The translations under genes were made by a program, and so were the position numbers. 34,361 nt of DNA from assembly GCA_021373025.1 (NCBI GenBank), contig JAJFTL010000032.1, forward strand, positions 1 to 34,361, read 5' to 3'. How positions within the stretch are numbered: the first letter of the stretch is position 1; every line of letters starts with the position of its first letter. This document shows positions 26,245 through 29,871 of this stretch, one piece after another. The DNA is from a bacterium (GTDB taxonomy: Bacteria; Caldisericota; Caldisericia; Cryosericales; Cryosericaceae). The notes under the pieces were generated by a model, which saw nothing but the letters and a program-made list of their open reading frames with translations, was not told the origin of the DNA and searched no databases.

Positions 26245-26718
26245 CTAAAACCACGTTGCCAGGACGCCATTGATGATTCCCACCGAAACCAGGAACACGA
26301 TCACGCACGCCCCCAACACACCAAGTGAGATACTTGCGATGGCGAGAGGCTTCTTCATGTGGATAAGCTCGGCGATGAAGCATCCGGTGTAGGCCCCAGT
26401 TCCCGGCAAGGGTATCGCTACGAACACAGCGAGTCCGATGAAGAGTCCATACCGGACAAGAGTGGACCGGCTGCGCACCGTAAGGCGCGACCGATAGCGC
26501 TGAAACCAGGCCCACCTCGATAGGATGGCCAGGGCAGGCTTCTCCACCAGGTAGAACAGTGGAGCGATGGAAAGGTTCGCAAGCGTTGCCACCAGCAGTG
26601 CCTGCCATGCCTGCATCTTGAGAACGCCAAGTGCGTAGGGCAGGGCACCACGAACCTCAACACCCGGGATGAGGGTGATCAGAAAGATGCTCAGGATATT
26701 TCTCAACAGCATGTCCAT
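26245..26718 (-). CDS. Small multidrug export-like membrane protein (PF06695-type)
   Basis: 157 residues from the ATG at 26718. Features: 'ITLIPGVEVRGALPYALGV' near the N-terminus, and 'VAIPLPGTGAYTGCFIAELI' in the centre, with about four membrane segments. This pattern matches the 'putative small multidrug export' family, whose substrate is unknown. The ATG follows TATACT by six bases with no Shine-Dalgarno, so the mRNA looks leaderless; a second in-frame ATG is at 26712. The C-terminal half contains an exact DnaA box. Confidence 0.75.
   Translation of the reverse strand: MDMLLRNILSIFLITLIPGVEVRGALPYALGVLKMQAWQALLVATLANLSIAPLFYLVEKPALAILSRWAWFQRYRSRLTVRSRSTLVRYGLFIGLAVFVAIPLPGTGAYTGCFIAELIHMKKPLAIASISLGVLGACVIVFLVSVGIINGVLATWF
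26358..26366. promoter_or_regulatory. Exact DnaA box inside the exporter gene near parS
   Basis: TGTGGATAA within the coding sequence (encoding part of Leu-Ile-His-Met), 122 bp from parS. It may be chance, though exact boxes are rare outside the origin. Confidence 0.4.
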
Positions 26719-26724
26719 TTCTTG

Positions 26725-26752
26725 AGTATAGATGTGCTGTGAGAGGTTGCAA
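26725..26752 (-). promoter_or_regulatory. Promoter of the exporter gene, apparently leaderless
   Basis: Minus strand TTGCAA (26752-26747), 16-bp spacer, TATACT (26730-26725), then 6 bases before the ATG at 26718. Confidence 0.55.
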
Positions 26753-26760
26753 CGCGAACA

Positions 26761-26789
26761 TTGCAAATTCTTGCTCACAACGATACAAT
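26761..26789 (+). promoter_or_regulatory. Sigma-70-type promoter of the DUF4388 gene
   Basis: TTGCAA (26761-26766), 17-bp spacer, TACAAT (26784-26789). Start near 26796, then GGGAG (26816-26820) and the ATG at 26827. It is divergent to the exporter promoter. Confidence 0.6.
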
Positions 26790-26826
26790 AAGTGGACGAT
26801 GTGCACACTGGAACTGGGAGTCAATC

Positions 26827-27447
26827 ATGCTTGAGGGAAAGTTTGGCAACAATCAGGTGGACGAGGTTCTCCAGACAGTTGTGCGGAGTGCGGGAACGGG
26901 ACGGCTCAGTCTTGATGGTACGTCGATTTTTGGGGGTCATATTCAGGCAACCTTCTATCTTGAGAACTCGTGCGTGGTTCACGTAGAAACCGGTGCCGGC
27001 ACACGCTTGACCTCGATGATCGACCTGTTCTGCCTGAAAGAGGGGACCTTCTCGTTTGCGAGCGGTGAAAGGTCACCGGCGCGCGACCAGTCGGTCCCGG
27101 TCGCTGACATCATGCTTCAGGTGACGGCAGCTCTCGACGAATGGAATGCCATGCGCCAGCGCCTTGGTTCACTGGACGCAGTGTATTCTTTGAGGGCGGG
27201 CGGGGCAGTGTCGGACTTCACGCTGACCCGCGAGCAGTGGCGAGTCATGGCTCGGCTGGACGGCAAGACATCGCTGCGTGAGCTTGCCCGCGTGATCGGG
27301 GCAAGCAGCGTCGCTGTAGCGAAGACAGTGTATGGGTTTGTCGAGGCGGGACTTGCAGCCGAAGTCGAGGCGGTGAGCCCCGCGGTAGAACCAGACCAGG
27401 AAGTATCACCCCGCCGCGGGTTCCTCGGTCTCTGGAGTCGCAGGTAG
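26827..27447 (+). CDS. DUF4388 protein with C-terminal winged-helix-like region
   Basis: 206 residues. The N-terminal DUF4388 domain (about 1-95) has 'VDEVLQTVVRSAGTGRLSL', 'ATFYLENSCVVHVET' and 'DLFCLKEGTFSF'. Such domains occur in PatA-like regulators and gliding-motility systems. Residues 130-185 ('LTREQWRVMARLDGKTSLRELARVIGAS', 'AKTVYGFVEAGL') look like a winged helix. GGGAG six bases before the ATG. It lies 9 bp before the IMPDH-like gene and shares its transcript. Confidence 0.7.
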   Translation: MLEGKFGNNQVDEVLQTVVRSAGTGRLSLDGTSIFGGHIQATFYLENSCVVHVETGAGTRLTSMIDLFCLKEGTFSFASGERSPARDQSVPVADIMLQVTAALDEWNAMRQRLGSLDAVYSLRAGGAVSDFTLTREQWRVMARLDGKTSLRELARVIGASSVAVAKTVYGFVEAGLAAEVEAVSPAVEPDQEVSPRRGFLGLWSRR

Positions 27448-27456
27448 GAAGCAGAC

Positions 27457-28347
27457 ATGCCAGCAGGATTCCGGGACGGTCTCTTCTTCGACGACGTCAT
27501 GCTGCTTCCGCGGCGCAGCGAGGTAACCTCGGCCAATGTCAGCCTTGTATCCCGGCTCTCGAAAAATGTTGAGTTGTCCCTTCCATTCATTGCCTCGGCA
27601 CGACAGCCTGCAGCAGACTATCGCTTGGCTTCAACTGTTGCACGGTTGGGCGGCATCGGCATCATCCCCGCTGTTGGAAGCGTTGAGGACCAGGTACATG
27701 AAGTGCGCAAGGTCAAGGAACTCATGGGCAGGGACGAGCATGCCGCGTGCGACCTGAAGGGACGGCCGATCGTCGGAGCACTTGTCGATCTTGAGCGGGA
27801 CGACATTATCGAATGGATAGGGTTGCTTGCCGAAGTGTGGACAGACGTTATCGCTGTTGATGTGCCACATGCCGACCATGCCGGGCTTCTTGAGAAAATT
27901 CGAGCAGTGAAAGCCGAGTACGACTGGCTGACCCTGATGGTTGGCAGCGTACAGACGCGGGCTGGCGCAAAGGATGTTATCGATGCGGGTGCCGACATCG
28001 TCGTCGTTGGGAGTGGATCCAGTTCGCTGACAGAGGCGACCGAGCTTTCGGGCGTCGGTGTCCCGGAGTTCTCTGCACTTGTGGAAGTCGCGGACGTTGC
28101 CTCTCTCTATGGCAGACCAATCGTCTGCAACCTGGGGGTCCGCTCTTCTGCGAGCGTCGTCAAGGCACTTGCCGCCGGAGCAGCAGCCGTCGTGCTCAAT
28201 TCACTAACCCCTGATACTGCCTCCCGGCTGGTCGAAGAGACCGCAGCGCAGGTGCGCGAGAGTTTGAGCTACGTCGGTGCGCGAACTATCCCAGAACTGC
28301 GCGAGAAGGCAGAGTTCATCCGCATCCACCCTCCGTATTCTGGCTGA
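27457..28347 (+). CDS. IMPDH/GMP-reductase-family TIM barrel lacking the catalytic Cys loop
   Basis: 296 residues. The barrel follows IMPDH: 'FDDVMLLPRRSEV' (11-23), 'GGIGIIPAVGSVEDQVHEVRKVK', 'VDVPHAD' with Asp135, 'DAGADIVVVGSG' (176-187), 'GVRSSASVVKALAAGAAAVVLN' (227-248) and 'YVGARTIPELREKAEFIRI' at the end. The CBS pair is missing, explaining the short length. The catalytic loop (IMPDH 'GPGSICTTR') is replaced by S-G-S-S-S-L-T-E, without Cys; the only cysteines are 98 and 224. The 'AMDTVTE' segment is replaced by 'SARQPAAD'. It probably cannot oxidise IMP, and may be a sensor or a new enzyme. No second guaB is seen here. Confidence 0.8.
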   Translation: MPAGFRDGLFFDDVMLLPRRSEVTSANVSLVSRLSKNVELSLPFIASARQPAADYRLASTVARLGGIGIIPAVGSVEDQVHEVRKVKELMGRDEHAACDLKGRPIVGALVDLERDDIIEWIGLLAEVWTDVIAVDVPHADHAGLLEKIRAVKAEYDWLTLMVGSVQTRAGAKDVIDAGADIVVVGSGSSSLTEATELSGVGVPEFSALVEVADVASLYGRPIVCNLGVRSSASVVKALAAGAAAVVLNSLTPDTASRLVEETAAQVRESLSYVGARTIPELREKAEFIRIHPPYSG

Positions 28348-28410
28348 ACACGGACGACGATTGCCTCGCCGAGCAGGCGGGGGAACCACATGAGAGAACG
28401 AATTTGCGAC

Positions 28411-29871
28411 TCAGCGCTCCTTGACGACCTGCAGGTACCTGGCTGACTTGTCGATGATGCCCTGCAAGTCTGCACCATGATCACGCATGAACACCATGTA
28501 GTCGACGCACTCGTGCGTCATGACCTCGCCGGGAACGGTGATTGGGATGCCAGGGGGATAGGGAGTGACAAGCTCTGCGATGATGCGTCCGACGGAATCC
28601 TCCATCCGGACGCGCTCTCTCTTTGCATAGTATGCCTCAAATGGAAACAGGACCATCTCCGGAATGGCAGGGATGGGCGGCGGGGGTGCGATACTTGAGG
28701 ATTTGCCACGCCGCTTCCGGGCAATGTCCTCAAGTGCCTTGACGAAAATGTCGACTGTCTCGGGCGGCGTGCCAATCGTGATAAATGCCAGGATGTTCTC
28801 GAGATCGGACAACTCAATCTCAACGTTGTAGTCCCTGTTTAACATCTCCTCGACTTGGAAACCAGTCAGCCCCAGTCTTGAAACATGTACCGTCAGTTTG
28901 GTCAAGTCGACATCATAGATAGCCTCGGTGTGGGCCCGCTCTCTGCCAGGTGCAACGAGTCCATCGATGTTGTTGATGCGCCTGCGGGCGTCCTCGGCAA
29001 GGTCAATCGCACGTGCGAGCAAGTCATGGCCGTTGGTGGCCATCTGCATGCGGGCAACGTCGAGAGCTGTCATGAGGATGTAGGAAGGAGATGAAGTCTC
29101 CAGCATCGTGAGTGTGGCTCGTACCAGTTCCTTGTCCACGCGCCGTGAGCCCAGATGCAGCATGGACGTCTGGGTGAGGCCGGACAGCGTCTTGTGCGTG
29201 CTCTGCACCACCATGTCTGCGCCCGCGTCGACGGCGCTCCTGGGTAGGTCTGGATGAAAATGAAAATGGGAGCCGTGGGCTTCGTCGACCAGGATGCGCC
29301 GGCCGGTCGCATGTGCCTTCTGAACGTAATAATCGATGTCGGCGCTGATACCGAAGTAGTTGGGATTGGTGAGAAAGACCGTCTTGGCCTCTGGATGGTC
29401 GCGGAGCACGCGCGCAAACGTCTTCTTGGAAGGAAATGTCTGGAATTGCAGCAGACGGTCTTCCTCAGCCTCGAGGTAGATGGGCCGCAGCTCATTGAGG
29501 ATCAATGCTCCGTACATCGATCGATGTGAATTGCGCTGGACGATGACGCGGTCATAGGGGTCGCAGGTGGACAGCAACATCGCCTGATTGCCGACGGTCG
29601 ATCCGTTGACCAGGAAGAAGGATTCGATCGCGCCGTATGCTTCAGCTGCCAGTTCCTGTGCCTCCCTGACCACCCCGATAGGGCGGTGGAGATAGTCGAG
29701 GCCTTCGACTTCTGTCAAGTCCGACAGGAACACGTTCTCTCCCCAAAACTCCTTGAGGCGTGGATGGATGCCTTGGCCTGCCATGTGGCCTGGCATATGC
29801 AGACCAGCCCGGTGCTTGCCTATGTATGCCTGGACGGCATCAAAAAAAGGGGTACGGCTTTGATCGCTCAT
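28411..29871 (-). CDS. speA: Orn/Lys/Arg decarboxylase family PLP enzyme
   Basis: 486 residues. The PLP lysine is Lys227 in 'STHKTLS'; 'LVDEAHGSH' (195-202) holds the cofactor Asp196 and the stacking His199. 'GLHMPGHMAG' and 'NGSTVGNQAM' are family motifs, and the C-terminal 'YPPGIPITVPGE' is typical. Length fits the Bacillus SpeA/YaaO group of biosynthetic decarboxylases. Arginine is the likeliest substrate, but lysine or ornithine is possible. The MTA phosphorylase at 17667-18473 would recycle MTA if polyamines are made. The ATG is placed 7 bases after TACACT with no Shine-Dalgarno. Confidence 0.85.
   Translation of the reverse strand: MSDQSRTPFFDAVQAYIGKHRAGLHMPGHMAGQGIHPRLKEFWGENVFLSDLTEVEGLDYLHRPIGVVREAQELAAEAYGAIESFFLVNGSTVGNQAMLLSTCDPYDRVIVQRNSHRSMYGALILNELRPIYLEAEEDRLLQFQTFPSKKTFARVLRDHPEAKTVFLTNPNYFGISADIDYYVQKAHATGRRILVDEAHGSHFHFHPDLPRSAVDAGADMVVQSTHKTLSGLTQTSMLHLGSRRVDKELVRATLTMLETSSPSYILMTALDVARMQMATNGHDLLARAIDLAEDARRRINNIDGLVAPGRERAHTEAIYDVDLTKLTVHVSRLGLTGFQVEEMLNRDYNVEIELSDLENILAFITIGTPPETVDIFVKALEDIARKRRGKSSSIAPPPPIPAIPEMVLFPFEAYYAKRERVRMEDSVGRIIAELVTPYPPGIPITVPGEVMTHECVDYMVFMRDHGADLQGIIDKSARYLQVVKER

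Follow-up and report, generated by a model that had tools for sequence, protein, structure and literature searches.

IMP dehydrogenase (IMPDH), or GuaB (Pfam PF00478, NCBIfam TIGR01302), is recognised by a (beta/alpha)8 barrel, a catalytic cysteine in the motif GxGSxCTTR and a mobile flap that carries an Arg-Tyr pair. The roles of the Cys, Thr321, Arg418, Tyr419 and Glu431, numbered as in T. foetus, are described in PMC2525682. According to this paper, the GMP reductases GuaC and GuaB1 keep Thr321 and Glu431, and their flap is truncated and has no Arg-Tyr pair. The catalytic Cys is kept in these enzymes as well.

Dead copies of metabolic enzymes that have turned into regulators are already known. 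In trypanosomatids, inactive copies of deoxyhypusine synthase and of AdoMetDC, the latter known as the prozyme, are kept for a regulatory role, and PMC3663545 describes how a dead paralogue tunes deoxyhypusine synthase. IMPDH itself has been modelled together with a regulator in the integrative model IMDH-CODY (PDB 9a6q); a paper on this type of method discusses, in its accessible part, CodY-YppF and not the IMPDH-CodY pair (PMC11383924). Among the titles and abstracts of the open full-text literature, a body outside which most subscription papers fall, no dead bacterial IMPDH paralogue with a regulatory role was recognised. One paper of that literature mentions DUF4388.

The locus considered here lies in the window, i.e., the whole stretch of 34,361 nucleotides that was analysed, which belongs to a genome of the genus Cryosericum. 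On its forward strand, an open reading frame at 27457-28347, running from ATG to TGA, encodes a protein of 296 residues. This protein, called IMPL below, is classified as an IMPDH-fold pseudoenzyme from its reading frame, Pfam and NCBIfam matches, alignment and structure model. Like the trypanosomatid proteins, it is an apparently inactive copy of a metabolic enzyme that has been kept; but those dead paralogues act on an active sibling, whereas IMPL is tied to the gene of a DUF4388 protein. The IMDH-CODY model likewise differs from this locus, as it contains a full IMPDH and a different regulator.

Fold and catalytic residues of IMPL

IMPL has the barrel of the IMPDHs. It matches PF00478 over residues 8-250 (E 4.2e-63), and its AlphaFold2 model, built with 10 sequences, has a mean pLDDT of 82.8 and a pTM of 0.84, with low confidence at residues 195-200, the counterpart of the Cys loop. 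A Foldseek search with this model ranks IMPDHs first, and VIA-align superposes it on the B. anthracis IMPDH 3usb_A over 276 residues (Z 36.6, rmsd 2.2). Besides the fold, IMPL shares with GuaB the N-terminal FDDVLL-like strand, the order of the barrel and the C-terminal YVGARTIPELREKAEF-like signature, so that the barrel framework and C-terminal signature noted in the preliminary description are indeed present. Family models nevertheless set IMPL apart from the working enzymes. Its best NCBIfam match, IMP dehydrogenase (TIGR01302), reaches 174.6 bits against a curated equivalog cut-off of 481.5, and the GMP reductase models give 38-118 bits (best 117.6 of 675) against cut-offs of 344-675.

IMPL was compared with the GuaB of the same genome (G000, the window's genome) across nine intact orthologues. 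Unlike GuaB, IMPL lacks the CBS pair, the catalytic Cys, Thr and Asp, the Arg-Tyr pair of the flap and most of the C-tail. The CBS insert, which spans 111-113 residues in the four CBS-bearing GuaBs compared and 111 in the genome's own GuaB, is missing between residues 92 and 93 (junction in the alignment at 27732-27733, forward strand like all features below). The catalytic Cys, Cys314 of GuaB, is replaced by Thr192 (codon aca, 28030-28032) in two orthologues, those of the window and of G004, and by Ala in the seven others. In all nine, GuaB Thr316 is changed to Ala, Arg317 to Thr, Met61 to Arg, Asp62 to Gln and Gly370 to Asn, and the Asp of the IADGG motif (GuaB Asp347) is Asn225 (28129-28131); Gly348 has become Leu or Met. 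Furthermore, IMPL lacks, at the junction of residues 254 and 255 (28218-28219), a flap segment of 57-59 residues (57 in the own GuaB) with Tyr394, Met397, Arg410, Tyr411 and Glu422, leaving gaps in the columns of the flap Arg and Tyr in 9/9. Met61, Asp347, Gly348, Gly370, Tyr394 and Met397 of GuaB presumably line the IMP site. In T. foetus numbers, every intact orthologue thus lacks or has exchanged the equivalents of the catalytic Cys, of Thr321 and the following Arg, of the IADGG Asp and of Arg418, Tyr419 and Glu431. IMPL resembles the GMP reductases in its truncated flap, but it has none of the Cys, Thr321 and Glu431 that these enzymes keep. Judged by its sequence, IMPL does not qualify as a working IMPDH or as a GMP reductase.

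These results bear out the earlier view of an IMPDH-like protein in which the Cys loop and the CBS domains are absent and the cofactor side is changed. By contrast, the S-G-S-S-S loop whose conservation had been put forward as a check is found in only two of the nine orthologues, while seven have S-G-F-S-S; the invariant part of the loop is G-S-G-x-S-S. A sequencing error or an artefact of a single genome was considered as well and is rejected, since the same losses and the same architecture recur in nine intact orthologues. The absence of the CBS pair alone is not unusual, as this trait is shared with IMPL by three class members (the IMPDHs of G023, G037 and G040; 362-364 residues) whose Cys loop and DGG and DRY motifs are intact.

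Canonical GuaB and the relationship of the copy

The preliminary description had suggested looking for a normal guaB, and a canonical GuaB is indeed encoded at another place in the genome. GuaB with the Cys loop and the DGG and DRY motifs occurs in 13 of 15 Cryosericum genomes, including the window's own, and in eight of the nine that carry an intact IMPL, so that IMPL is not needed for the IMPDH reaction.

Some genomes show peculiarities. In G004 (94% complete), the single GuaB detected (L032 4662-6158) has GPSSISATR in place of GPGSICTTR and DRC in place of DRY, i.e., both the catalytic Cys and the flap Tyr, which are kept in the 13 other GuaBs of the genus that were read, are replaced. G008 (80% complete) yielded no GuaB; both of the matches obtained there are pieces of a damaged IMPL. 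The guaB frame of G014 (L036 4656-7184) encodes 843 residues with the IMPDH part at the C-terminus, which may be either a fusion or an over-extended frame. In the wider class, G015, G016, G019, G020, G028 and many other near-complete genomes, of families f2/f3, yielded nothing with the IMPL query at E 0.001, which may point to frequent loss of guaB in the class.

IMPL and the Cryosericum GuaB are identical at 93 of 295 positions (31.5%). In a FastTree phylogeny of IMPDHs, from which a fragment (G295) and the extended reading frames of GuaB in G014, G010 and G012 had been dropped, IMPL falls outside the Cryosericum GuaB clade on a branch of 1.19, with weak placement. This identity and this position, with the reservation that the branch is long and weakly placed, disfavour a recent duplication of the own GuaB. 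An origin from a virus or plasmid was rejected too: tblastn matches among plasmids and phages all stay below 60% identity and 80% query coverage, eight of the ten plasmid matches among those listed are annotated as guaB and the ten phage matches listed carry no annotation. A scan of viral contigs found no relative of IMPL in 82 candidate stretches.

The same comparison bears on the idea that IMPL enters mixed tetramers and tunes active GuaB, as the dead paralogue does for trypanosomatid deoxyhypusine synthase (PMC3663545). IMPDHs are tetramers, according to PMC4342496, IMPL keeps the barrel and the trypanosomatid case provides a precedent. However, its low identity to GuaB, its position outside GuaB in the tree and the loss of the C-tail and flap argue against such a subunit. 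Moreover, guaB is not among the genes conserved around IMPL, a search of G008 yielded no GuaB and the one in G004 is altered. We therefore regard this role as improbable.

Linkage, distribution and selection of the two-gene unit

Directly upstream of IMPL lies a gene, probably one for signalling, at 26827-27447, whose start (ATG 26827) was set by conservation. It encodes a protein of 206 residues with a DUF4388 domain at residues 4-107, followed by about 100 C-terminal residues that possibly form a winged helix. We take DUF4388 to correspond to the PATAN domain. The protein matches PF14332 with E 1.4e-9 and 38.5 bits, above the gathering cut-off of 25, and the family is matched in all ten DUF4388 orthologues, with E-values up to 0.5. 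The two genes are separated by a spacer of 9 nucleotides (27448-27456), which has the same length in the ten loci compared. A promoter-like site, TTGCAA-17-TACAAT (26761-26789), ends 37 nucleotides before the DUF4388 start; it is a match of a consensus scan rather than proof, and the only one on the forward strand in 26600-28600, where the scan of both strands gives three sites against a mean of 0.5 in shuffled sequences. The DUF4388 protein and IMPL would be made together.

The linkage is strict. In a sample of 15 Cryosericum genomes, the window's own included, IMPL orthologues are present in 11, nine of them intact, and the DUF4388 gene lies directly upstream in 11/11 loci; whether this adjacency is constant was one of the checks put forward in the preliminary description. 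Intact pairs occur in G000, G001, G002, G004, G005, G010, G011, G012 and G013. In G008, only IMPL is damaged, by frameshifting indels, and its DUF4388 neighbour is intact. In G009, both genes contain indels, while an open frame covers at least 85% of the query for each of the neighbours ParA, ParB, RsmG, Orn/Lys/Arg decarboxylase and GHMP kinase. This damage indicates that the pair is dispensable and that the DUF4388 gene can outlive IMPL. In two further genomes, G007 and G014, both genes are absent together from a locus that is otherwise collinear. In a tree built from five neighbour genes, G007 sits next to G001 within the carriers, so that both genes were lost there, while G014 stands on the longest branch of this tree and either loss or primary absence would account for it. 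No IMPL match was found in G003 (73% complete) and G006 (61% complete), and the locus was recovered in neither: both lack a match to the decarboxylase, and only a ParA relative of 33% identity occurs in G003.

All IMPL orthologues found belong to the genus Cryosericum. None was found in 54 genomes of the phylum outside the genus, and among 386 genomes of wider relatives no match from outside Cryosericum exceeds 156 bits in a profile search (cut 1e-36) in which the orthologues score 455-647. A pattern scan of genome_contigs, which relied on just two peptide patterns and can overlook distant relatives, returned 12 relatives among 78 stretches: nine from the genus and three Facklamia/Globicatella loci (32% identity), of which the two that were read are canonical IMPDHs.

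IMPL is under purifying selection. Its median dN/dS is 0.084 over 45 pairs (ten rows, including the damaged G009 copy) and 0.081 over the 28 pairs that remain when G000, G014 and G009 are left out; the DUF4388 gene has a median of 0.147 (41 pairs). Six neighbouring genes range from 0.037 to 0.167, and the value of IMPL lies inside this range. It follows that a decaying gene without function, which the damaged copies of G008 and G009 and the absence from G007 and G014 could suggest, is very hard to reconcile with nine intact copies constrained like their neighbours, and we consider it highly improbable.

The barrel face, the putative DUF4388 partner and possible roles

Four residues of IMPL, Asp135 (27859-27861), Gly185, Gly187 and Ser190, are invariant in 9/9. 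In V. cholerae IMPDH, Asp-250 binds the nicotinamide ribose, and this Asp and two Gly contact the nicotinamide ribose and carboxamide (PMC4342496). By our own reading of the alignment, the Asp135 column would be that of Asp-250, and the two Gly would likewise fall in the same places. These four residues allow for a leftover nucleotide site, and thus for a sensor to which a purine nucleotide or NAD(H) would bind without turnover and which would signal to the DUF4388 protein. A conserved ligand pocket was sought through the conservation of the active face and was not found in the eight genomes compared with GuaB, G004 having been left out because its GuaB has no Cys. Of the residues in the active-face loops, 34/53 are invariant in IMPL against 44/52 in GuaB (p 0.025), while the helices and opposite loops are alike (105/146 and 103/146). 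The difference between faces is not significant inside IMPL alone (p 0.30) and has p 0.064 inside GuaB; the comparison is a single, small test whose loop borders come from the structure model. The active face of IMPL, no more conserved than the rest of the protein and less so than that of GuaB, argues against a conserved ligand pocket, and the counterparts of the residues assigned above to the IMP site are changed or missing. A sensor therefore appears unlikely.

The same barrel could also have acquired a different chemistry. Purifying selection and a barrel face with five new, invariant polar residues (R49, Q50, E193, N225 and N248) speak for an enzyme of this kind, but there is no excess conservation of the active face and the flap-bearing segment is missing, which leaves this reading rather improbable. 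The lower conservation of the active face is explained no less well by a role as scaffold or partner than by a ligand pocket. Because its catalytic machinery is gone, the copy is probably a binding partner rather than an enzyme. The reading that we favour, with a little more confidence than doubt, is that IMPL, an IMPDH-fold protein without catalytic activity, is made with the upstream DUF4388 regulator and serves as its protein partner. The lost catalytic residues and flap, purifying selection, strict linkage and joint absence of the two genes speak for it. The damaged copies of G008 and G009 count against it, as do the modest tree support and differing neighbourhoods of the DUF4388 gene, a second DUF4388 with a GTPase in Cryosericum (see below) and the poor model of the DUF4388 protein.

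Under this partner reading, IMPL and the DUF4388 protein would bind each other, and the latter would be the output part, as an adaptor or by binding DNA. Its description as a DUF4388/winged-helix protein is firm for the first domain; a winged helix in the C-terminal half is likely but unproven, as HTH matches there are below threshold (MarR_2 in 5/10 orthologues, best E 0.014) and the structure model has low confidence (pLDDT 50). Residues 131-181 additionally match the PADLOC CARF3 model (E 0.0012), and a search by sequence for a relative of solved structure found none.

Related DUF4388 proteins mostly have another kind of neighbour. A Ras/Arf-like GTPase (Pfam ATP_bind_1, Arf or Ras) adjoins a DUF4388 protein of comparable length in 13 of the 15 loci examined from families f3 and f4 of the class. 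The Cryosericum DUF4388 partner comes out as sister to the GTPase-linked f3 clade, with a support of only 0.835, and shares an LDEWN stretch with f3 DUF4388. The neighbourhoods differ, being parAB/rsmG in Cryosericum versus PFK/TldD for the f3 type. For example, in G028 and other class-mates (L061 4539-6726) a DUF4388 gene lies between the genes for phosphofructokinase and a Ras/Arf-like GTPase, downstream of two TldD/PmbA genes. At the Cryosericum locus, the place of an adjacent small GTPase gene is taken by IMPL, and no GTPase of the f3/f4 type was matched in the 15 Cryosericum genomes at E 0.001. The GTPase system as such has not been lost, since another Cryosericum DUF4388 heads a triad with Roadblock and an MglA-like GTPase, the latter being too distant to show in that search. 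In the window's genome, this triad lies at L136 4366-5975, between the genes for peptidase M18 and a radical SAM protein. The f3/f4 pairs and the triad share with the IMPL locus an upstream DUF4388 protein of 180-213 residues, but their partner is a Ras/Arf-like GTPase versus an IMPDH fold here. IMPL would then supply the binding or switching function that the Ras/Arf-like GTPase may supply to related DUF4388 proteins. That the dead IMPDH barrel actually took over from such a GTPase as the switch that partners the DUF4388 regulator is a more doubtful proposal, and we hold it only as a tentative extension.

For annotation, PF00478 alone would count the IMPL gene as purine biosynthesis. If the pairing with the DUF4388 protein is physical, an enzyme fold would have been recruited, in a poorly cultured phylum, into a module that is elsewhere linked to small GTPases. 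Should the replacement also prove true, a pseudoenzyme of guanine-nucleotide synthesis would do the job of a guanine-nucleotide switch.
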